Below are positions 11,695-41,747 of a stretch of DNA of 64,000 bases, piece by piece. The notes under the pieces are model-generated. The model was not told the DNA's origin. It did no database searches and saw only the letters and a list, made by a program, of their open reading frames with translations. Positions within the stretch are counted from its first letter, which is position 1, and each line of letters begins with the position of its first letter. A program made the translations under genes and the position numbers. Location of the stretch: contig NZ_JAOTJC010000008.1 in the NCBI RefSeq assembly GCF_025628895.1, positions 369,315 through 433,314 on the forward strand. Reading direction: 5' to 3'. The stretch is from Alteromonas salexigens. Lineage in GTDB: Bacteria; Pseudomonadota; Gammaproteobacteria; Enterobacterales; Alteromonadaceae.

Positions 11695-13625
11695 TACCAC
11701 TCACTCCGGTTGGTTGGCATACGTTGGCGGCGACGCTGTTGTGCCTCTAACTGCATTTTGCGTTTAAGCAGATACGCCGGATCATCCGGCACCCGGCGCA
11801 ACAGGTTATCCAGTCGCTGCTGAGCTTCTTTTTGTTCTTCGGTCATTTCGCCGGCGACCCCTGCATTGCCCTCAGGTTCACCTTCGGCTTGTTCTGACTG
11901 GCTATTTTGAATTGGCGTCTGGTCTTCCTGAGCCGCTTGTTCATCGGCGGTTGTGTCGCCGGGCTGAGGCTCGCTATCCTCCGCAGACGGGGCAGGTTGG
12001 TCATCTTCGTTCTGTGGCGCCGAGTCAGCACCGCCCTGTTGGCTCTGGTCACCGGAGTCCGGTGACTCACCCTCCTGGGGCTGATCTTCCCCCTCGCCGG
12101 ACTCTCCCTGTGATTGATCCCCGTTGTCGCTGCTGCTGTCTGAAGACTCGCCATTGTCGCCTTGCTGGCTGTCAGAAGACTCGCTGTCCGATGATTGCGA
12201 GTCTTGCTGTTGCTGCTGTTTTTGCTGATCTTTCAGCGACTCCAGTAGTGCCTTATTCGTCGCTGCATCTTCGTGATCCGGATTGGCTTCAAGCACTTCT
12301 GCATATTTTTTAATAGCGGCATCCAGCTCCCCCATCTTCGCCAGTGCGTTGGCCTGATTATAAGTGGCCTGAGGGGTATTAAGCTGACTATAAGCCTGTG
12401 CTGCGGCAGCGTAGTTCCCGGCTTTGTAGTGCGCCGCGCCACGCCAGGCCGGGTTCTCAAACTGGCTGGCGGCCTGCTCAAATTGCTGCGCATCAAAGGC
12501 AGCAGCCGCTTCCTGATTATCATTTAAAAACGGACGCTGCCAGCCTGGTACCGGGTCTGCTGGCGCCTCTTGGGCGTGCGCCGGCGGCGAAAGGGGGACC
12601 AGTGCGGGCAACAGCAAAAACAGGATTATCCCGCGGCGAAAGCCGTAAGCTGCCAGAGGGATAAGCAGAAGCAGCAGATACGGACCAAGTTCCTGCCACT
12701 GGTCGCCGGCGCGGCGTTCGTCGGTACTGTCACTGCCAGACTGACGCTGACTGAGTGTGAGTTCGGCCAAATATTTAATATCCCTGTCGTCCGCTGTCAG
12801 GGTTGTAAAGCGGCCGCCGCCGGCCTGACTGATGCCCTTCAGCAGCCCACTGTCCATTTTAGGAATGACGATGGCGCCACTGGTTTGTTTTAGCAACTCA
12901 CCATCCAGCTGGCGAATAGGCGCGCCCTCGCGGGTGCCCACCCCCAGCACGCTGACGGTGTAGGGTAATTTGCGGATATATGACTGTAATTCGCTTTGCT
13001 GGTCCCGCTCAATCCCATCGGTGATCCAGTAGATGCTGCCTTGCGTGTAGCCAGCCTGCTCCAGTAAATCGGCGGCAGTCCGGATCCCCAGTAAGGGATC
13101 CGAGCCGGTTACTGGCATAATCTCAGGACTCAGGCTGGGCAGCAGGGTAGTGAGGTTACTGGCATCACTGGTAAGCGGGCTGATTACAAACGCATCCCCC
13201 GCGTAGGCCACCAGGCCCATTTCCCCTTCACCAATTTGATTCACCAAATCGATGGCTTTGTACTTGGCACGAGTAAGACGATCTGGCGACACATCGGTGG
13301 CCCGCATAGAAAGTGACATATCAATCACCACCACGTGGCCGGTATTTAACTGATAAACCGGTTGGGGCAGACGTTCCCAGGTAGGGCCCGCCAGGGCCAC
13401 TACGGCCAGTAGCCAGCCAGCGGCCAATAGCCAGAATGGCGGGCGCTGCCCCCGTCCCGCTTTCCCGGCCACCATGTGTTGATACAGGTGATTGGCCACC
13501 ACCTGCTGCCAGCCAGACTGTTTATGGCGGAGTTGCCGAACCGCAAACAACAGTGCCAGCAGTGGCAACAACGCCAGAAACCATTCGGGGCGAAGAAAAT
13601 GAAACTGGGCAAACGGTATATCCAT
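11694..13625 (-). CDS. batB: BatB-like VWA protein fused to a TPR (BatC-like) domain
   Basis: 643 residues. Two N-terminal membrane helices precede a von Willebrand A domain (about 95-290) with an intact MIDAS motif D102-M-S-L-S106. A further hydrophobic segment (about 312-350) ends in an 'AHA'-like site. TPR repeats follow (about 370-465), then a very acidic, Gln/Ser/Glu/Asp/Gly-rich stretch (about 470-600) and a basic tail. In Bacteroidetes batB and batC are separate genes; here they are one polypeptide. The start overlaps the batA stop (TAATG) and the stop overlaps the batD start the same way. Confidence 0.9.
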   Translation of the reverse strand: MDIPFAQFHFLRPEWFLALLPLLALLFAVRQLRHKQSGWQQVVANHLYQHMVAGKAGRGQRPPFWLLAAGWLLAVVALAGPTWERLPQPVYQLNTGHVVVIDMSLSMRATDVSPDRLTRAKYKAIDLVNQIGEGEMGLVAYAGDAFVISPLTSDASNLTTLLPSLSPEIMPVTGSDPLLGIRTAADLLEQAGYTQGSIYWITDGIERDQQSELQSYIRKLPYTVSVLGVGTREGAPIRQLDGELLKQTSGAIVIPKMDSGLLKGISQAGGGRFTTLTADDRDIKYLAELTLSQRQSGSDSTDERRAGDQWQELGPYLLLLLIPLAAYGFRRGIILFLLLPALVPLSPPAHAQEAPADPVPGWQRPFLNDNQEAAAAFDAQQFEQAASQFENPAWRGAAHYKAGNYAAAAQAYSQLNTPQATYNQANALAKMGELDAAIKKYAEVLEANPDHEDAATNKALLESLKDQQKQQQQQDSQSSDSESSDSQQGDNGESSDSSSDNGDQSQGESGEGEDQPQEGESPDSGDQSQQGGADSAPQNEDDQPAPSAEDSEPQPGDTTADEQAAQEDQTPIQNSQSEQAEGEPEGNAGVAGEMTEEQKEAQQRLDNLLRRVPDDPAYLLKRKMQLEAQQRRRQRMPTNRSEW

Positions 13626-32804: not shown

Positions 32805-34217
32805 ATGTTTGAAAATTTATCTGAACGCCTCGGCCAGACGTTACGCAATGTCAGCGGAAAAGGGCGTCTAACAGAAGACAATATCAAAGAAACACTGCGT
32901 GAAGTGCGCATGGCGCTGCTGGAAGCCGATGTGGCCCTGCCGGTGGTGAAGTCGTTTGTGGCGCAGGTTAAAGAACGCGCAGTGGGCGCCGAAGTCAGTA
33001 AGAGCCTTAAGCCCGGTCAGGTGTTCATTAAAATTGTTCAGTCTGAACTGGAAGCAGTCATGGGGGAGGCGAATGAAAAGCTGAACCTGGCGACTCAGCC
33101 CCCGGCGGTAGTGCTCATGGCAGGTCTGCAAGGGGCGGGTAAAACCACCAGTGTGGGCAAACTGGCTAAATACCTCACTGAACGTGAGAAGAAAAAAGTG
33201 ATGGTGGTCAGTGCCGACGTCTATCGTCCGGCAGCGATCAAACAACTTGAAACCCTGGCTGACGAAGTCAACGTGGGCTTCCATCCCTCCACCGAATTTC
33301 AAAAGCCGGTAGACATTGTTAATGGCGCCATCGATGCGGCCAAAAAGCAATTCTACGATGTCCTGCTGGTAGATACCGCCGGCCGTCTGCATGTGGACAA
33401 CGACATGATGGGCGAGATTCAGGCCCTGCATAATGCGGTTAAGCCAGTAGAAACCCTGTTTGTGGTTGATGCTATGACCGGTCAGGACGCCGCCAATACC
33501 GCCAAAGCGTTTAACGACGCGTTGCCGCTGACCGGTGTCATCCTCACCAAAGCCGACGGGGACGCCCGTGGTGGTGCTGCCTTGTCTGTACGTCATATCA
33601 CCGGCAAACCCATTAAGTTCATCGGTATGGGTGAAAAGGTCGATGCCCTTGAACCCTTCCATCCTGAGCGTATTGCCTCGCGTATCCTTGGCATGGGAGA
33701 TGTACTGAGTCTGATTGAAGAAGTCGAGCGCAAGGTAGACAAAAATAAAGCCCAGCAACTGGCCAAGAAAGTGCAGAAAGGCAAAGGCTTCGATCTACAG
33801 GACTTTAAAGATCAGCTTGAGCAGATGAAAAACATGGGTGGCATGATGGGGATGCTGGACAAGCTGCCTGGTATGGGCGGCATGTCTGACAAAATTAAAG
33901 ATCAGGCCAACGACAAACAGTTTGTGCAGATGGAAGCCATCATCAACTCCATGACGCCGGGTGAACGCTCGCGTCCTGAGATTATCAAAGGCTCACGCAA
34001 GCGCCGTATTGCTGCGGGTTCAGGTACCCAGATCCAGGATGTGAACCGGTTGCTGAAGCAGTTTACCCAGATGCAGAAAATGATGAAAAAAATGTCCGGT
34101 GGCGGCATGAAGAAAATGATGCGCCAGATGAAAGGCATGATGCCGCCGGGTGGCGGTGGTCCGGGCGGCCCGGGCGGAATGGGCGGCGGTATGGGCGGTA
34201 TGTTCCCGCCTCGCTAA
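32805..34217 (+). CDS. ffh: Signal recognition particle protein Ffh
   Basis: 470 residues. N domain (about 1-90), G domain with G1 GLQGAGKTT at 107-115, 'DTAGR', 'TKADGDARGGAAL', and a methionine-rich M domain (about 330-430) that binds 4.5S RNA and signal sequences. It targets nascent inner-membrane proteins to FtsY/SecYEG. The C-terminus ends in a Gly/Met/Pro-rich low-complexity tail (about 433-470). In E. coli ffh is followed by rpsP; here about 15.8 kb separates them. Confidence 0.98.
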   Translation: MFENLSERLGQTLRNVSGKGRLTEDNIKETLREVRMALLEADVALPVVKSFVAQVKERAVGAEVSKSLKPGQVFIKIVQSELEAVMGEANEKLNLATQPPAVVLMAGLQGAGKTTSVGKLAKYLTEREKKKVMVVSADVYRPAAIKQLETLADEVNVGFHPSTEFQKPVDIVNGAIDAAKKQFYDVLLVDTAGRLHVDNDMMGEIQALHNAVKPVETLFVVDAMTGQDAANTAKAFNDALPLTGVILTKADGDARGGAALSVRHITGKPIKFIGMGEKVDALEPFHPERIASRILGMGDVLSLIEEVERKVDKNKAQQLAKKVQKGKGFDLQDFKDQLEQMKNMGGMMGMLDKLPGMGGMSDKIKDQANDKQFVQMEAIINSMTPGERSRPEIIKGSRKRRIAAGSGTQIQDVNRLLKQFTQMQKMMKKMSGGGMKKMMRQMKGMMPPGGGGPGGPGGMGGGMGGMFPPR

Positions 34218-34235
34218 CCTGCGTCTGATTTTACC

Positions 34236-34262
34236 GGCCACCCACGCGTGTGGGTGGCCGTT
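34236..34262 (+). terminator. Terminator hairpin after ffh
   Basis: A perfect 10-bp stem ggccacccac (34236-34245) / gtgggtggcc (34250-34259) with loop gcgt, 18 nt after the ffh stop. The following sequence (gttcgttat) is only moderately T-rich. Confidence 0.75.
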
Positions 34263-34359
34263 CGTTATACTCGCAGTGCCAGTCTGCCCGCTCACGGCAA
34301 GTGCCGTAATTCTCCGCAGCACCCACACCTTCTCCTGCAACACCACTGAATAAAACACC

Positions 34360-34389
34360 TTGACAGCATCATAAAGATGGCATCATTAT
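34360..34389 (+). promoter_or_regulatory. Promoter and probable operator of the WYL regulator/SMC locus
   Basis: A consensus -35 TTGACA (34360-34365) and -10-like CATTAT (34384-34389) are separated by 18 nt, ending 16 nt before the WYL gene. The spacer contains a direct repeat GCATCAT (34366-34372 and 34380-34386) and an inverted repeat catc-N5-gatg (34367-34379). A repeat placed between -35 and -10 of a repressor gene suggests autoregulation. Confidence 0.6.
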
Positions 34390-34405
34390 GAGTCCATATT
34401 AACCG

Positions 34406-35311
34406 ATGGATGTACTTATGCCCTCAAATACTTCCGCTATCGCTGAACTTCCCCATGCGCAGCGTGAGCGTCTGGCCTTTATTGATTTCAGCTTACAGTA
34501 CTTCGGGCATATCAGCCGACAGGAACTTATCCAACGCTTTGCCACCGGTCTGGCGGCCAGTACCCGTGATTTTGCTACCTACCGTGAACTGGCACCAGAT
34601 AACCTGCTACTGGATCACCAGTTTAAACGATACCGGCGCACCGACCGGTTTGCGGCACTCTTCTCTCATGATCCGCAGGTGATTCTGAATAGCCTGAGTT
34701 TAGGGTTCGGAGACGGCATCGCTACCGCAGTCACGCCATCGGCGCACTGTGTGAACGCGGTTAACCTGATCCATCCGCAGCCGGATATTATTGCCGGGCT
34801 CACCCGGGCCATCCATAACCAATATCCGGTAGAGGCGGAGTATGTCAGCGTCACATCCGGCCAGAAAAAGCGGCTGCTGGTGCCCCATGCCATTGTAAAC
34901 AACGGGCATCGCTGGCATGTCCGTGCCTATGACTGCGACTCACAGAGTTTTCGCGACTTTGTGTGTACCCGGTTTATTCGCGTGACCGCCGTAGACCGAG
35001 CGCTGGCGAACCGTGAGCGGGCAGAACAGGATGCACTCTGGCAGCAGCAGGTTTGCCTCACGCTTATTCCCCATCCGGGCTTGCCGAACAGCCGTGCGAT
35101 CGCACTGGATTACGCCATGCAGGACGGCCGCAAAGAGGTCACCATCCGCGCGGCGCTGGCCGCGTATTTGTTGCGATACTGGCAGGTAGACTGTTCGCCA
35201 GGCGCGCAAATAACCGGGCAGGGATGCCAACTGGCGCTGGCCAACCCTGAGATCCTGGGTAGCATTGACAGCGCCCACCTGGCGCCGGGGGCAGGGCGGG
35301 CACCACACTGA
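34406..35311 (+). CDS. BrxR/CapW-like WYL-domain transcriptional regulator
   Basis: 301 residues, or 297 from the second Met. The N-terminal winged helix (about 15-95) contains 'RLAFIDFSLQYFGHISRQEL' and 'ATRDFATYRELAPDNL'-type sequence (here 'STRDFATYRELAPDNLLLD'), characteristic of the BrxR/CapW group. A WYL ligand-sensing domain follows (about 125-195, 'NGHRWHVRAYDCDSQSFRDF'), then a WCX-like C-terminal dimerisation domain (about 212-290). In the literature such proteins repress BREX, CBASS and other phage-defence operons until a signal is sensed. It precedes the SMC-like operon by about 240 nt and has a promoter with repeats. Regulation of the downstream genes is inferred. Confidence 0.87.
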   Translation: MDVLMPSNTSAIAELPHAQRERLAFIDFSLQYFGHISRQELIQRFATGLAASTRDFATYRELAPDNLLLDHQFKRYRRTDRFAALFSHDPQVILNSLSLGFGDGIATAVTPSAHCVNAVNLIHPQPDIIAGLTRAIHNQYPVEAEYVSVTSGQKKRLLVPHAIVNNGHRWHVRAYDCDSQSFRDFVCTRFIRVTAVDRALANRERAEQDALWQQQVCLTLIPHPGLPNSRAIALDYAMQDGRKEVTIRAALAAYLLRYWQVDCSPGAQITGQGCQLALANPEILGSIDSAHLAPGAGRAPH

Positions 35312-35550
35312 CCACTTTGGTATGTGCAGTACAAAAAATGTGCGGTCGAACCCCAGGAATCCGCCCTGGGTAAGCCTGCCACTGGGCAGCGCAGGCATTT
35401 CATAATACACTGTCCGGCTACACAATGCGGGTCTCATGCGCAGCCGATTTAGCCTGCCTTACAACATCACCCGCAGCCCAAAGCAGTAGCCTACTTACGG
35501 GTGTTCCGCCCGCACGGCTTCTTCATTTGATGAATGTTTACAGGATTACT
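35312..35550 (+). promoter_or_regulatory. Leader region between WYL regulator and SMC gene with two hairpins
   Basis: 239 nt without a credible gene. Two consecutive hairpins occur: cccagg (35352-35357) / cctggg (35365-35370), and gcctgc (35374-35379) / gcaggc (35391-35396). Only a short T stretch follows, so they could attenuate read-through from the WYL promoter rather than fully terminate. A possible -10 (cataat, within 35400-35407) follows; no clear -35. Confidence 0.35.
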
Positions 35551-38500
35551 ATGGCCGGCTTAAAACGCATTATTCTTATCGATACACACCTGCCAGGGGT
35601 GGTCGAACTCAAGCTGGATGGACATACCAACATCTGCGGTACCAACGCCTCGGGGAAAACCACCCTGCAACGTCTTATTCCGGTATTCTATGGGGAGTAT
35701 CCCAGCCGCGTGGTACCGGCCACCCGTGACAGTTTCGAGCGCTGGTATCTGCCCCGCCAGTCAAGTTTCATTATTTATGAATATGCCCGGGCAGAGGGCG
35801 ATCTGTGCCAGGCGGTGCTCTCGTCAAACGGTACTGGCGTCAACTACCGACTCATTGGTAAACCGTTCGAGAGTGACGATTACCTGATTAAGCAGAAAAA
35901 CGGCAAATATACCAGTACCACCAGTGCGGAACTGGCCCGGGCTATGAAGCGCAACAATGTACTGGTCAGTAGCTTGCTCACGACCAAAGACTTCCGGGCC
36001 ATCATGCAAAACGATCAGGGCGTGTTGAATCAGAGCGCCAATGGCCGGGAGTTGCTGGGCTATGCCAAAATCTTCAGCCTGTGCACACCGGGCCTGCATA
36101 TGCGCCACATTGAGAAGCTGGCGAAGGCAGTGCATTCCAAAGAAGGCAAGATGGAAACCATCAAGGCCATGATTGCCGCTATTCTGGAAGAGGATGGTGT
36201 ACAGCCACCGTCCTCCAACCTGAGCCGCAACCGGGTAGACGACTGGATAAAAGAATGCCATCTGATTAAGCAGTTTGACAAAATCCGCCCGGAGTTTTCA
36301 AAACTGGAACAGGCCAACATGGCCCTTACCAGCACCGAACAGACACTCTCTACGCTGAAGAAGTCCTTTGAGCTGGATAAAACCCGGCTGTCGGCAAAAG
36401 CCGAAACGTTACAGAACCAGCTTCAGGAGAACCAGTTCCAGCGTAAGCAGAGTGACGCCCAGTGGCATGACAGCCGTGATGAACTTAATCAGGTGGTGTC
36501 TTCGGCCAGAGCGGATGTCGAGAAGTTCACCAGTGAACTCGACGCCGTCGAACGGGAGTTCGATCACTGGCAGGAACAGAATATAGAACAACTGAAAGAA
36601 GACGTGGCCAACCTGCCACAATGGCAAAATGAACTGGAGCTGGTGTCCAGTCGCTATCAGTTACTGACCGAAAAGCACCAGGATATCGAGTCTGCATTTA
36701 ACCGTCGTCTCGCTGAACTGGGTGATAAGCTGAGTCTGACCCTGGAGCAATTGTCAGCCTCACGTCAGGAAGCCGCAGACAAACGCAGTGAGCAACAGCA
36801 GGGAGAACGGGACGCGCTGCAAGCCATCCGCGATGATTTTTCCCAGCAACTGCAGGCGCTCAGTGACAGTTATCAGGCCCAGCTCAGTGATTTGAAAGTC
36901 ACCGAGGCGGAACTGAAAGCGTCGCTGGCCAATGCGGGTTATAACGAATTCGAACAGTCCCAGCTGGACTTACTGGACGCGGCCATTAAAGAGGCGTCGG
37001 TGTCTGAGGATGCGGCGCGACAAGAACTCCGCCATGCGCAGCAGCAACACAGCAAGGCTGTGCAGCAGCGCCAGGAAGCCTCGTCAGCCCTCGACAAAGC
37101 GCGCCAAACCTACCAGCGGGAAGAAAAGGCAGTGGCCAGCGTGAATGCGCTATTGTATCCCGGTAAGGGCTCGCTACTGGAATATTTACGCGCGAACGTG
37201 GAAAACTGGGAAGCCTCGCTGGGGAAAGTACTGCGCCCGGAACTGCTTGAACGCACCGATCTTGCCCCTGGCACCGCAACAGGCGATAGCCTGTATGGTG
37301 TGACACTGGCCCTGGCGGCATTGGAAACACCGGAATATGCGGCCACTGAGCAGTCGCTTAAACAGCGGCTTGCTGATGCTCAAGCGGCTCAGGCTGAGGC
37401 TCTGAGTATCCAGAACAGCCGTGAAACGGAGCTGGCCCAGGCCAATGAAGAAGTCCGTAACGCCGAGCTGTCCATGACGCAGAAGGATAATGCGGTTAAA
37501 TCTGCCGAAGCCAGCCGTAAACGCGCCCAGCAGGACCGCGATACCGTGCTCAGCGAATACCAGCAGGCACTGGCGGGACGCAAACAAAAAGCCAAGAGCC
37601 GCCTGGAATCTAACCAGCAGGCTCAGAAACAATGCCGTGCCCAGTACGAGCTGGACCGGGACGAGATGAAAGACCAGCAGCGTGAGTCGGAGACCGAGCA
37701 TAGTTTCCACTGGCAGCAGCTCATTGCCGACACCGACGCCCGTATCGCGCAGCTGGACGCGGATATGAAAAAAGCCCGCGACGCTACCGCCAGTGACCGC
37801 AAAGATATGGAGCAGTGGCTGGAAGATGAACTGAATAACCGGGGTGTCGATGTAGATGAAATCGGCCAGCTGAAAAAGCGGATGAAGACGTTGAAAGACG
37901 ACATCTACCGCACCGAATCACACCGTCATAAAGTCAGCGATTATGCCCGCTGGTATGACACCGTGTTCAACGGCCATAAAGTCAGCTGGCAGCAGTCGCT
38001 GGCCAAAGCCCGTAAAGTGCTGGGCGAAGCGGAGCGCAGTCTGGCGCAGAAGCAAAGTGCCTATAAAGAAACCCGCGAACAGCTAAAAGATCAGCAGATC
38101 ACGCTGGAACGGGAACACAAGACGGTCACTGAGCATTTAGAGCAAGTGAACAGTTTATCCCGGGCGCTGGCCAAACTCACCCTGCGGCCTGCCGAAGACA
38201 GCGCGGTAGATGCCGATGACAATACCATTGGCCAGCGGTTGTCAGAAGCACAGAGCCTGCTGCAGGAGCGGGAAAACCTGCTCAGTGATGTCCGAAGCTA
38301 TGTGGAGCGTTTCGATCAGCTTATTGCCGCGCAGGCGGGAACCGGGTTGTCCGATACCTGGGAACGGGCCCGTGAAGAGTGTGCGGTCATCAACGCCCAC
38401 GGCGTGAAAGGTATTGATCACCGGCGCATGGTGGCGCACCTGGCGCAGCTGCTGAATGTCATTGTTCCGCAGAAGCTGCAGGGACTGCGGGAGCAGGGCC

Positions 38501-39231
38501 GTATATTCGGGGCGGATCTGAGTCAGTACTATTATGTGCTGGCGGATATCGATAAACGTATCGTGTCGCAGAGCCGCCGGATTACCAAAGAAGTCGACGG
38601 CGAGTTATTCCTCGACGGGGTATCTGATTCAGCCGTGAAAATTCGTTCCCGGATCAGTGAACTTGAGTTCTGGCCGGAGCTGGAGCAGTTCCGCAAGCAC
38701 TATGATGCGTGGATGGAGCAGGGCGCGAACGAGTTACCAGAGGAAGAATACGGGCAAAGTATGCGCCGGGTGCTGGATATCCTTGGCCGTGCTGCACTGA
38801 CAGGGGGCATCAGTAAGCTGCTGGATATTGAGCTGCACCTGCGAGAGGGCAACAGTGATTTGGTGATCCGTACCGACCGACAGCTAAATGAGTCCTCCAG
38901 TCACGGTATGGCTTACCTCATATTATGTAAATTCCTGCTGGCATTTACCCGCTTACTGCGAGGCGATGCCGACGCGGTGATCCACTGGCCAATCGATGAA
39001 CTGGGTACCTTGCACCAAAGCAATGTGAAGAAGATTTTTGACGCCTGTCAGAACAATAACATCAGTGTGGTCGGCGCTTTCCCTAATCCGGAGTCGGATG
39101 TACTCACATTGTTTGAAAACCGTTATCTGATTGACAAGGTGACCCGCAAGTTACAGGTGGTGCAGCCTCAGGCAAGTATTATTGCCGATCGGCTGAAAGC
39201 CCGTCGCGAGCAACAGGAGGTATCAGCATGA
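35551..39231 (+). CDS. SMC/MukB/MksB-like ATPase (DUF3584-type)
   Basis: 1226 residues from the ATG at 35551, chosen for AGGA 7 nt upstream; in-frame starts at 35530 and 35425 are possible. Walker A is G30-TNASGKTT38. Long coiled-coil arms (about 250-530 and 606-930) flank a small globular hinge-like insert (about 531-605). The C-terminal head has a divergent ABC signature 'LNESSSHGMAYL' (1112-1123) and Walker B 'VIHWPIDE' (1143-1150) with the catalytic Glu. Head-arm-hinge-arm-head order defines an SMC-type motor, closest by appearance to the MksB/JetC and DUF3584 proteins. Its stop overlaps the next gene by 4 nt (ATGA). It probably entraps or extrudes DNA loops with the next two products. 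Confidence 0.9.
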   Translation: MAGLKRIILIDTHLPGVVELKLDGHTNICGTNASGKTTLQRLIPVFYGEYPSRVVPATRDSFERWYLPRQSSFIIYEYARAEGDLCQAVLSSNGTGVNYRLIGKPFESDDYLIKQKNGKYTSTTSAELARAMKRNNVLVSSLLTTKDFRAIMQNDQGVLNQSANGRELLGYAKIFSLCTPGLHMRHIEKLAKAVHSKEGKMETIKAMIAAILEEDGVQPPSSNLSRNRVDDWIKECHLIKQFDKIRPEFSKLEQANMALTSTEQTLSTLKKSFELDKTRLSAKAETLQNQLQENQFQRKQSDAQWHDSRDELNQVVSSARADVEKFTSELDAVEREFDHWQEQNIEQLKEDVANLPQWQNELELVSSRYQLLTEKHQDIESAFNRRLAELGDKLSLTLEQLSASRQEAADKRSEQQQGERDALQAIRDDFSQQLQALSDSYQAQLSDLKVTEAELKASLANAGYNEFEQSQLDLLDAAIKEASVSEDAARQELRHAQQQHSKAVQQRQEASSALDKARQTYQREEKAVASVNALLYPGKGSLLEYLRANVENWEASLGKVLRPELLERTDLAPGTATGDSLYGVTLALAALETPEYAATEQSLKQRLADAQAAQAEALSIQNSRETELAQANEEVRNAELSMTQKDNAVKSAEASRKRAQQDRDTVLSEYQQALAGRKQKAKSRLESNQQAQKQCRAQYELDRDEMKDQQRESETEHSFHWQQLIADTDARIAQLDADMKKARDATASDRKDMEQWLEDELNNRGVDVDEIGQLKKRMKTLKDDIYRTESHRHKVSDYARWYDTVFNGHKVSWQQSLAKARKVLGEAERSLAQKQSAYKETREQLKDQQITLEREHKTVTEHLEQVNSLSRALAKLTLRPAEDSAVDADDNTIGQRLSEAQSLLQERENLLSDVRSYVERFDQLIAAQAGTGLSDTWERAREECAVINAHGVKGIDHRRMVAHLAQLLNVIVPQKLQGLREQGRIFGADLSQYYYVLADIDKRIVSQSRRITKEVDGELFLDGVSDSAVKIRSRISELEFWPELEQFRKHYDAWMEQGANELPEEEYGQSMRRVLDILGRAALTGGISKLLDIELHLREGNSDLVIRTDRQLNESSSHGMAYLILCKFLLAFTRLLRGDADAVIHWPIDELGTLHQSNVKKIFDACQNNNISVVGAFPNPESDVLTLFENRYLIDKVTRKLQVVQPQASIIADRLKARREQQEVSA

Positions 39232-39863
39232 TGACTGAACAGGGGCGTGTAGTAAGCAAGTTACTGCAGGGAGAATTTATTTGTCAGGTCAGTGATGAAG
39301 AAGGCTGGCGGTATCTGAAGCGCCGGGACAGTGCCGAGCAGATTGAACCCCATTTGAATTTGCTGAACCGCACGCTGGCCAGCACCGCGGAAGGTGAGGT
39401 GTTTTTTGCCGGCTACCTCACTTTAGGTGATGATGAGCGTAAAGTACTTCATCAGCAGTTTCAGGAAACCGCCACCAGTCTGGTACCGCTGGTAGAGTGG
39501 CTGTTGCTGGTTCAGCAGGCCAGTGAGTCAGATATGCCCGTTACCATGGGTAATGCGATACGCCTGAACGAGCTGCAGAGCACCATCGAAGATACCCCGG
39601 CCTATGCTGAGCAACTGGAAAAAATTTCCCGCTACCGTTTGTTCGGTTCCACCAGTGTGAATTTGGACGGGCAGCTGAAACAGGTATTTAAACGCCTGAC
39701 CGAGCTGGGTTATCTGTTAAAGCCCAATTCTGAAAAGCAGATCTATCTGGCGACCGGCAAAGTGGAACATTTATATGAGATGATCCGCTTTATCGATGAA
39801 ACGGAGTCGCTGTCACTCTCGGAACAGGCGGAGGCGGCCATTCAACAGGGTAGTCTGCTATGA
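39228..39863 (+). CDS. MksE/JetB-like (DUF4194-type) condensin accessory protein
   Basis: 211 residues. The ribosome site AGGAGG (39215-39220) lies 7 nt before the ATG at 39228; a second ATG follows at 39231. The N-terminal 'VVSKLLQGEFICQVSDEEGW' and the 'LNLLNRTLASTAEGEVFFAG' segment resemble the winged-helix start of MksE/MukE/JetB. The C-terminus has a second helical/winged-helix section ('LKQVFKRLTELGYLLK'). It overlaps both neighbours by 4 nt (ATGA). In MukBEF/MksBEF/Wadjet this KITE-type dimer bridges kleisin and DNA. Similarity is weak and assigned mainly by size, order and pattern. Confidence 0.75.
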   Translation: MMTEQGRVVSKLLQGEFICQVSDEEGWRYLKRRDSAEQIEPHLNLLNRTLASTAEGEVFFAGYLTLGDDERKVLHQQFQETATSLVPLVEWLLLVQQASESDMPVTMGNAIRLNELQSTIEDTPAYAEQLEKISRYRLFGSTSVNLDGQLKQVFKRLTELGYLLKPNSEKQIYLATGKVEHLYEMIRFIDETESLSLSEQAEAAIQQGSLL

Positions 39864-41080
39864 GCCAGGTGTTGATTCAGGCGGGCAACCGGCTGCTGAA
39901 TGCCCTGGGGCGTCACAGTGAATTGATTATGCAGGCCTATGTGAACGGCACGGTAACCGAACGGGATCACAGCCCCAAAGTGCTCGAGCAACTGGTGCAG
40001 CTGGGGGTGCTATGGCGCCCGGATCCAGACAGCGAATTGCGACTGAAAAGTGCCGTACGTACATTGCTGGAGGGCAGCTTGCAGGACGAGCGTAGCCGCA
40101 CTATAAATGCCAATATCGGCGCCTCGCTGGCGAGCCTGAAAACCCTCGCCGAGCACTACAAAGAAGCATTGCATTACGGCCGCTACAATGATGCCACGGC
40201 TCACATGGGCGATCTCACGGAACACGTATATCAGCTTACCGAGTCGCTCAGTAACAGCGTACGGGTAATGTTCAGCCGCATTGCTAACGAATTCGGCTAT
40301 GTGGCCTCGGTAGAGGCGAAAATTCGCGAGAATGAACTGGCACAGGGGCAGGTTACTGAGCTGTTGTATCAGCTGGAGTGTTTCCGGTTCGATGAGTTAA
40401 GTGAAATCGCCGGATCTAACCGCGAGTTACGCCATCTGCTGGTGGTCTCACTGCAAAAGAGCTTCTCACGGGCAGCGCAGGAACTGTCAGTCGTGCAGGC
40501 CCGGTTGCTCGACTTACTGGGGCGGTTCCGTGAATTTCAGGGCCGCACCCGTCTGTTGAAAGGCTACTTATTACACATGGAGCAACAGCCTGATTTTGTG
40601 CCCGGTAATTATACCAGGCTCAGTCAGGTACCGGTGTTGTTCAATCAGGCCGCGAGCATGCTGAAACCGGCATTTGCCGACGTTAATAACGTCAGCCATG
40701 AAGCACAACTGCAGGAAGTGGTGGGGTCACTTACCCAGTTGCATAAACGCCAGCCTGAACAACATGCGTCGTCCCCCGACAGCGACATAGATGTCAGCGA
40801 GCAGGATACGGTGTCACTGACTAAAGATCCTATCCACCGTGAGGTGGACAGCTTCTTCTGCGCGGTGATCGACACTGGCCAGCCCCGATCGGCCCTCACC
40901 TATTATGCCGAACAAGGCCTCAGCTTCGATCCGGAAGTCTGGATTTATCAGGTTATCGGAGGCTTCCAGGCGTTAAACGATACCGACAAGCAATACTTTG
41001 CGCTGGAGCCCCACGGCCGGGTAGACCGCACCTTTGATGGTAACTTTTACATCAATGATATTACGCTGGGTTTACGCTAA
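39860..41080 (+). CDS. MksF/JetA-like kleisin subunit
   Basis: 406 residues; the start ATG overlaps the previous stop (ATGA). The N-terminal ~75 residues look like a winged helix. The middle is almost all helical (about 85-300), including coiled-coil-like 'SVQARLLDLLGRFREF'-type heptads (here 'VVQARLLDLLGRFREFQGR'). A Ser/Asp-rich disordered segment (about 300-320) precedes a C-terminal compact domain ending 'FYINDITLGLR'. Its position as third partner of an SMC and an MksE-like gene, with helical-linker-C-domain architecture, argues for a kleisin. No nuclease motif is visible. A terminator follows. Confidence 0.72.
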   Translation: MSQVLIQAGNRLLNALGRHSELIMQAYVNGTVTERDHSPKVLEQLVQLGVLWRPDPDSELRLKSAVRTLLEGSLQDERSRTINANIGASLASLKTLAEHYKEALHYGRYNDATAHMGDLTEHVYQLTESLSNSVRVMFSRIANEFGYVASVEAKIRENELAQGQVTELLYQLECFRFDELSEIAGSNRELRHLLVVSLQKSFSRAAQELSVVQARLLDLLGRFREFQGRTRLLKGYLLHMEQQPDFVPGNYTRLSQVPVLFNQAASMLKPAFADVNNVSHEAQLQEVVGSLTQLHKRQPEQHASSPDSDIDVSEQDTVSLTKDPIHREVDSFFCAVIDTGQPRSALTYYAEQGLSFDPEVWIYQVIGGFQALNDTDKQYFALEPHGRVDRTFDGNFYINDITLGLR

Positions 41081-41091
41081 GACAGCACAGG

Positions 41092-41119
41092 AAAAGGGGG
41101 TTAACACTCCCTTTTTTTA
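41092..41119 (+). terminator. Terminator of the SMC-like operon
   Basis: The stem aaaaggg (41092-41098) / cccttttt (41109 onward) is followed by a T run (41112-41118), 11 nt after the kleisin-like stop. It separates the SMC unit from the TerB-like gene. Confidence 0.85.
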
Positions 41120-41327: not shown

Positions 41328-41747
41328 ATGTACGTAACACCGCAGCAAGCCTTTAACGAGGCACTTATCAGAATGTCAGTATTGCTTTATCAGGCTGACG
41401 GTATGGTCACCCTCACCGAACAGGATTACCTTGACGAGTTTATCGATTCCCTCGACTGGCAGAGTCCGATCAGCGAGAGTGCGTTCCTGAATAATGCCAT
41501 TTACGAAACCCGTAAAGCGCTGGATGTCGGGGATGGTGAAAAATACCTCAAAGCGCTTCAGCAGGATTTATTGTTTGATGCCGATAAGGCTATGGAAGTG
41601 GCAATGGCCATCACCGGCGCAGACGGCGAACGGTGCGACGAAGAAGCAGAGTTGCTGACCCTGCTGACCCATAAATTGCTTGCCAAGGCGCTGGTCAGCT
41701 GCGGACAGCCTAACGGGCCGGGCGGCACCGCGCCGGTAAGTATCTGA
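41328..41747 (+). CDS. TerB-like (tellurite-resistance TerB fold) protein
   Basis: 139 residues with ribosome site AAGGAG upstream of the ATG at 41328. All-helical pattern of the TerB/DjlA-N fold: 'ALIRMSVLLYQADGMVTLTE', 'FLDE'-like acidic positions and the second half 'AMAITGADGERCDEEAELL', the repeated A/G-D-G...E metal-binding-like motif. The last ~15 residues are Gly/Pro-rich. It is probably cytoplasmic. No other ter genes are nearby, so tellurite resistance is not implied. It has its own promoter and may or may not be linked to the SMC system. Confidence 0.78.
   Translation: MYVTPQQAFNEALIRMSVLLYQADGMVTLTEQDYLDEFIDSLDWQSPISESAFLNNAIYETRKALDVGDGEKYLKALQQDLLFDADKAMEVAMAITGADGERCDEEAELLTLLTHKLLAKALVSCGQPNGPGGTAPVSI

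Follow-up and report, generated by a model that had tools for sequence, protein, structure and literature searches.

Two kinds of system already known come closest to the operon examined here: the type I Wadjet defence operons (JetABCD, or MksBEFG) and the MksBEF complexes. The operon lies in a 64,000-nucleotide stretch of Alteromonas salexigens DNA (contig NZ_JAOTJC010000008.1, positions 369,315 to 433,314; hereafter the window), and encodes an SMC-type ATPase, an MksE-like KITE protein and a MukF-like kleisin, preceded by a gene for a WYL regulator. Pseudomonas aeruginosa MksBEF is described as a nuclease-free complex that contributes to chromosome organisation and probably derives from JetABCD by loss of JetD, and MukBEF and MksBEF are proposed, in the same review, to stem possibly from Wadjet-like defence systems (PMC10586767). 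The P. aeruginosa complex takes part in chromosome segregation, the joint loss of SMC, MksB and ParB being lethal, and the name MksBEF covers several distant families (PMC7485682). The mks gene order F-E-B-G is reported to be conserved in C. glutamicum and Pseudomonas (PMC10123090). BrxR, to which the regulator is related, binds inverted repeats, and its homologues co-localise with Wadjet among other systems (PMC9122601).

Like P. aeruginosa MksBEF, the window encodes a three-subunit SMC-KITE-kleisin complex, presumably beside Smc-ScpAB; it differs in the order SMC-KITE-kleisin (C-B-A in Jet terms) and in the BrxR-type regulator heading the operon, and the likeness is one of description. With type I Wadjet it shares the SMC and KITE subunits and, in its relatives, a subunit that is JetD-like and Toprim-type by profile, and the window and four Wadjet-type loci have in common a WYL gene of the BrxR type together with its operator-like motif. 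However, the window is without the JetD nuclease, the order is C-B-A-(D) instead of A-B-C-D, and the PADLOC models that score two control loci strongly barely score the window or its four-gene relatives. As for E. coli MukBEF, MukF-type and MukE-type chains come first in PDB for the models of the window's kleisin and KITE proteins, whereas the genus sample gave no MukB match and the profile matches to MukB, MukE and MukF are weak. The regulator is a full-length homologue of BrxR and CapW with an inverted-repeat operator-like site at its promoter, but the named structures regulate BREX (BrxR, PMC9122601) and CBASS (CapW).

We consider it likely that the operon encodes an MksBEF-type complex descended from a Wadjet-like system of four genes that has no name yet (SMC-KITE-kleisin-DUF7281), and that the nuclease was lost while the motor remained, probably in the role of an accessory condensin of the chromosome. 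More tentatively, and at somewhat worse than even odds in our judgement, SMC-DUF7281 may form a separate class of plasmid-cutting SMC-nuclease systems, met on plasmids only together with the nuclease so far, whose chromosomal members have lost it more than once and turned into a domesticated condensin, with Alteromonas showing the switch within a single genus, at one locus where three-gene and four-gene versions take each other's place beside ffh and a TerB-like gene. Neither the SMC-KITE-kleisin-DUF7281 system nor its nuclease-free state within one genus seems to be reported, as far as searches of an open-licence library show. Both states occur in one genus and seemingly at one chromosomal site, so that natural pairs would allow a direct test of how a defence system turned into one for chromosome maintenance, whereas in E. 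coli the step from Wadjet-like defence would be ancient. The relatives also point to an SMC-nuclease class, SMC-KITE-kleisin-DUF7281, that PADLOC does not recognise.

Subunits of the operon and the fourth gene of its relatives

All four open reading frames that the original prediction, made from the sequence of the window alone, had placed here were recovered, together with the two 4-nt overlaps it described, between the SMC stop (39231) and the MksE-like start (39228) and between the MksE-like stop (39863) and the kleisin start (39860); the WYL gene has no such overlap. The SMC protein matches Pfam DUF3584 along its full length (1094 bits). Its reading frame spans 1268 residues, with residue 43, the ATG at 35551, as the likeliest start; Walker A (GTNASGKTT) lies at residues 72-80 of that frame, and the positions given in the prediction, 30-38 for Walker A and 1143-1150 for Walker B, fit a protein starting at this ATG. 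The residues of Walker A and of Walker B (HWPIDE) show no variation across the rows compared (37 of 37), and the nearest named SMC relatives are from Alteromonas, with 86% identity in A. antoniana.

The 211-residue protein scores 27.2 bits against Pfam MksE, only at the cut-off of 27, and its low-confidence AlphaFold2 model (predicted local distance difference test, pLDDT, 61) retrieves MukE-sized chains of MukEF and MukBEF entries at PDB ranks 1-9 (E 0.02-0.17). The 406-residue protein has no kleisin family match in Pfam; its model (pLDDT 65) retrieves MukF-sized chains of MukBEF and MukEF entries at PDB ranks 1-10 (E 3.6e-3 to 6.1e-2), none of which reaches E 0.001. In a matrix of profile comparisons, SMC paired with JetC (96.8%, E 2e-10), MksE with JetB (47%, E 2e-4) and DUF7281 with JetD (96%, E 5e-9), and no mismatched pair was better than E 0.027. 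Judged by sequence and structure model, the three subunits are an SMC ATPase with Walker A, signature region and Walker B, a predicted MukE/MksE-type KITE protein and a predicted MukF-type kleisin, which is the composition of an MksBEF-type complex and agrees with the operon originally proposed.

The window gave at best 17.7 bits over 43 residues against the PADLOC JetC models, the others being weaker, and its KITE and kleisin proteins were unmatched; two four-gene relatives (L212 and L214) gave at most 16.1 bits against the PADLOC JetD models, and all eight proteins of the controls L190 and L192 scored strongly as type I Wadjet. MukB (PF04310) has no match in the window genome or in 11 other genus genomes sampled. 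ScpA was found in the window genome, and in 55 of 59 family genomes, so that the housekeeping Smc-ScpAB is presumably present beside the operon.

A fourth gene became apparent from 98 loci, made up of 60 fetched DUF3584 loci, 37 named loci and the window, or 97 without the duplicate L160 (same as L084). SMC and kleisin genes are present in 98/98 of them and MksE in 97/98. Directly after the kleisin gene, 26 of the 97 non-duplicate chromosomal loci carry a gene of about 290 residues (a count that includes L184, with only 26 bits, and leaves out L178, where the gene is 4.9 kb away). Counted by family, 26 of the 27 DUF7281 matches at these loci directly follow the kleisin gene, either overlapping it or starting no more than 103 bp beyond it, L178 being the exception. 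All 26 aligned members (L178 included, L184 excluded) belong to Pfam DUF7281, and 15 of them match JetD_C (E up to 0.1). At a mean column identity of 28%, eight residues (K, E, N, G, D, D, G, Q) are kept in all 26, of which we take the E and the DxD to be the Toprim nuclease motif. The aligned members are about 274-308 residues long, compared with 399-430 for eight JetD proteins, and from these features we predict DUF7281 to be a nuclease of the Toprim type, JetD-like but compact.

The original prediction saw no JetD/MksG gene in the operon; searches with the JetD_C, A3 and DUF7281 profiles found none there and none in the whole 3.55-Mb genome. Among 246 family genomes, JetD_C has no match in the window genome or in 11 other genus members sampled, and weak matches 2-3 kb downstream of DUF3584 in other genera. 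A JetD_C negative by itself says little, because the profile also missed the DUF7281 gene of one genus member (G203).

Distribution, selection and history

The operon is present throughout the genus: DUF3584 was found in 59/59 genomes, uninterrupted in 58, and 3 of 14 control genomes gave matches, none above cut-off. The single split gene (G529:C1 1374339-1377922), with a stop, is a pseudogene or a sequencing error. DUF7281 occurs in 4/59 genus genomes, beside the main copy in three (G535, G557 and G203) and beside a second, distant copy in G561, so that 56 of the 59 main copies have no adjacent DUF7281 gene and three have one. In G561 (C112, which is L209, and C54) the two forms coexist, the SMC of the distant four-gene copy being 24% identical to that of the window. 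The upstream neighbour, which we take to be ffh from its sequence, is found upstream in 36 of the 37 named loci, and a TerB-like gene lies downstream in 35. The latter adjoins three-gene and four-gene versions alike: it is downstream of all three four-gene main copies (L210, L211 and L212), and ffh is upstream in L210 and L212, the L211 contig beginning at the WYL gene.

In the family, DUF3584 is above cut-off in 118 of 246 genomes and DUF7281 in 39. Most of the DUF7281 matches (35/39) share their strand with a DUF3584 gene that ends 2.2-2.6 kb upstream, that is, beside DUF3584 in 35 of the 118 genomes that have it. Three other loci (G023:C28 145608-148875, G064:C42 3657-6921 and G140:C13 21349-24559) combine a weak JetD_C match in a frame of 276-283 residues with a weak DUF3584 match in a frame of 962-979 residues, about 2.4-2.6 kb away, and are perhaps another SMC-like plus Toprim pair. 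The order sample had DUF3584 in 104/295 and DUF7281 in 60/295 genomes, and the class sample 2/114 for each, the window genome being one of the two with DUF3584 and G638 having both genes, adjacent; both families are thus rare outside the order. Relatives of DUF3584 turned up in 45 plasmid records in a tblastn search. In all of the best 17 of the 45, the kleisin gene is followed by one of DUF7281 type that keeps the eight invariant residues, although these copies are partly non-independent (near-copies occur among four loci of Vibrio and within two pairs from Acinetobacter). The carriers include conjugative plasmids in Marinobacter, Azospira and Vibrio and mobilizable ones in Acinetobacter, Vibrio and Rhodoferax. 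On the Vibrio campbellii plasmid pLA16-1 (L219), the annotation breaks both the SMC gene and the kleisin gene in two and leaves the DUF7281 gene whole.

These counts bear on two outcomes that the original prediction had set against itself. A JetD-like gene is linked to the operon in many of its relatives, as the 35 of 39 family matches and the best 17 of the 45 plasmid copies indicate. The operon also resembles an ordinary core condensin within the genus, where it is fixed (59/59) and ffh almost always precedes it, but not in the family, where it is patchy.

The motor is under strong purifying selection and is not decaying. Over 15 nuclease-free Alteromonas pairs, some of which share a locus, the ratio of nonsynonymous to synonymous substitution rates (dN/dS) is 0.015-0.046 for SMC (12 pairs with usable dS), 0-0.033 for MksE (14 pairs) and 0.008-0.038 for the kleisin (13 pairs), and 0-0.021 for Ffh (all 15). 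Elsewhere few values are usable, with core-gene ratios of 0.006-0.080 in other nuclease-free pairs and 0.034-0.065 in DUF7281-bearing pairs. DUF7281 itself has a dN of 0.26-0.30 in three bearing pairs, exceeding the SMC values (0.056-0.111) by a factor of 2.7 to 5, and a dN/dS of 0.159 in the single pair with usable dS.

The SMC tree (FastTree, 101 proteins) has long branches and gives no direction. The window belongs to a supported clade whose 37 rows all lack DUF7281, and the label changes 13 times on the tree, at least 11 of these changes being forced by starred branches. DUF7281 accompanies 10 of the 11 SMC rows that make up the two outermost clades, 12 of 20 in the clade after them and 8 of 70 in the large one to which the window belongs. 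The distances among DUF7281 proteins agree with those among SMC proteins (Mantel 0.387, 0/999 permutations, 41 rows), and repeated loss is therefore favoured over repeated gain. A single clade of all Alteromonas SMC rows was rejected (p-AU 0.002, 42 rows), for a grouping that an earlier tree had suggested. Since the Alteromonas SMC proteins are not one clade, and yet the three-gene and four-gene versions seemingly occupy the same site, the operon was probably replaced in place within part of the genus.

Probable nuclease loss and the competing explanations

By analogy with Wadjet, the four-gene form would extrude DNA loops and cut small circular DNA once extrusion is complete. In the lineage of the window the nuclease gene would have been deleted and the motor retained, and the retained motor could then work alongside Smc-ScpAB as an accessory condensin of the chromosome, one that folds or segregates DNA and leaves it uncut. 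The BrxR-type WYL gene and the operator at its own promoter would be a remnant of defence-type control that is missing in most sister species. An accessory chromosomal condensin is proposed because of the precedent of P. aeruginosa MksBEF, and it is by this analogy that we infer the function. The original prediction of a condensin-type system acting without cutting is thus supported for this lineage, probably as a derived state, while its suggestion of a distinct defence system now appears less likely than genome maintenance.

Several observations count against loss of the nuclease followed by service as a condensin. Between the window and its nearest relative dS is saturated for SMC and kleisin, and dN/dS is not computable; label changes on a long-branched SMC tree cannot tell losses from gains; and the kleisin, without a sequence-profile match to JetA or MukF, owes its identity to a model with pLDDT 65. 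A BrxR regulator is unusual for a constitutive housekeeping condensin, and the patchiness of DUF3584 in the family (118/246) is unlike that of a core condensin.

The last two points belong as well to the principal rival, nuclease-free defence, in which the BrxR-type WYL protein represses the complex and the complex, once induced, compacts or silences circular foreign DNA uncut, as proposed for Smc5/6. This is unlikely in our view, but it would account for the operator-like palindrome across the promoter-like site of the regulator gene, for the four-gene relatives on plasmids and for the probable replacement of the operon in place in part of the genus. However, 34 of the 37 named relatives keep the operon without a WYL homologue at the locus, no operator lies directly upstream of the SMC gene, the 10 scanned neighbours in the window are not of defence families, and presence in 59/59 genomes under selection near that on ffh looks like a core function.

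An ancestral MksBEF form of three genes, with several later gains of DUF7281, is decidedly improbable. The change counts carry no direction, and 62 of the 70 rows in the large clade of the window are without DUF7281; but the gene is present in the two outermost clades (10 of 11 rows) and in all of the best 17 of the 45 plasmid copies, its distances agree with those of SMC, and its position directly after the kleisin gene is the same in 26 of 27 matches (overlap or gap of at most 103 bp).

Recruitment of a nuclease encoded elsewhere in the genome, which the original prediction had offered as an option, is very improbable and finds no support here: Wadjet motors do pair with a separate nuclease subunit (PMC10586767), but no match to JetD_C, DUF7281 or the A3 profile was found in the genome, although a nuclease of another fold would escape these profiles. 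Least credible of all is that the operon has been in decay since the nuclease was lost; the broken SMC gene of G529 may be cited for it, against dN/dS of about 0.02, motifs intact across the genus and uninterrupted genes in 58/59 genomes.

Locus layout, regulator and neighbouring genes

The genes run in one direction, from ffh through the WYL, SMC, MksE-like and MukF-like genes and the terminator to the TerB-like gene (Table 1). The terminator that the original prediction placed at the end of the operon is borne out by its folding score; the hairpin is absent from the list of a separate terminator pattern scan. Since the region holds 9 promoter-like sites, against a mean of 4.2 in shuffled sequence, the one assigned to the WYL gene does not count as evidence by itself.

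Table 1. Predicted features in and around the operon, in window coordinates
Feature	Position	Strand	Details
Terminator-like hairpin closing ffh	34235..34260	+	11-pair stem, 9 GC
Promoter-like site of the WYL gene, TTGACA-18-CATTAT	34360..34389	+	10/12 matches
Operator-like palindrome, 23 bp, TCATAAAGATGGCATCATTATGA	34369..34391	.	overlaps the WYL promoter-like site; motif kin upstream of relatives' WYL genes
BrxR/CapW-family winged helix-turn-helix-WYL repressor gene, 301 aa	34406..35311	+	Pfam WYL 44 bits; BrxR 7QFZ E 3.5e-72
SMC-type ATPase, MksB/JetC-like, DUF3584, 1226 aa from ATG 35551	35551..39231	+	reading frame opens at 35425
MksE/MukE-like KITE subunit, 211 aa	39228..39863	+	Pfam, profile comparison, structure model
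MukF-like kleisin, 406 aa	39860..41080	+	structure model
Intrinsic terminator	41089..41118	+	-16.2 kcal/mol, z -5.0
TerB-like gene	41328..41747	+	Pfam TerB 26.4 bits; 35/37 named loci

The BrxR/CapW-like character of the regulator, as originally proposed, is well borne out: residues 8-296 of 301 match BrxR (7QFZ), indicating full-length homology, and CapW (9C5G) is matched at E 1.7e-31. An inverted-repeat operator-like site sits, by its sequence, at the promoter of the WYL gene itself, and none was found directly upstream of the SMC gene. The palindrome motif precedes the WYL genes of L060, L068, L084, L139, L144, L156, L211 and L212 (19-23 of 23 positions) and those of the JetD-type loci L190, L192, L193 and L194 (21 of 23), with 0/200 shuffles as good at each locus, for a motif that was partly written from sites later scored; it was not found at L195, L197-L199, L150, L168, L186 or L187. 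Control by a WYL protein, put forward as a feature of the operon, applies to this genome and a few relatives and is not general, since a WYL homologue is conserved at the locus in just three of the 37 named relatives (L060, L068 and L084).

The four JetD-type loci are Alteromonadaceae Wadjet-type operons with a BrxR-type WYL gene first and the operator-like palindrome. The WYL proteins of L190 and L192 are 51-52% identical to that of the window, and both of these loci have an extra gene of 347-387 residues between JetC and JetD. At L199 (G218:C14), the WYL gene is divergent from a four-gene operon with a 1736-residue SMC-sized protein and a 354-residue JetD_C protein.

None of 10 neighbouring proteins scanned in the window is from a defence family. 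The interval from ffh to the SMC gene, in the window (34217-35551) as in L060-L096, is a spot of variable insertions, occupied by WYL genes, a family of 280-330 residues, a 700-residue protein or other genes. Further upstream, at 11697-13625, a VWA plus TPR protein is encoded within a same-strand gene run (8.0-17.2 kb) that is possibly an aerotolerance-type operon.

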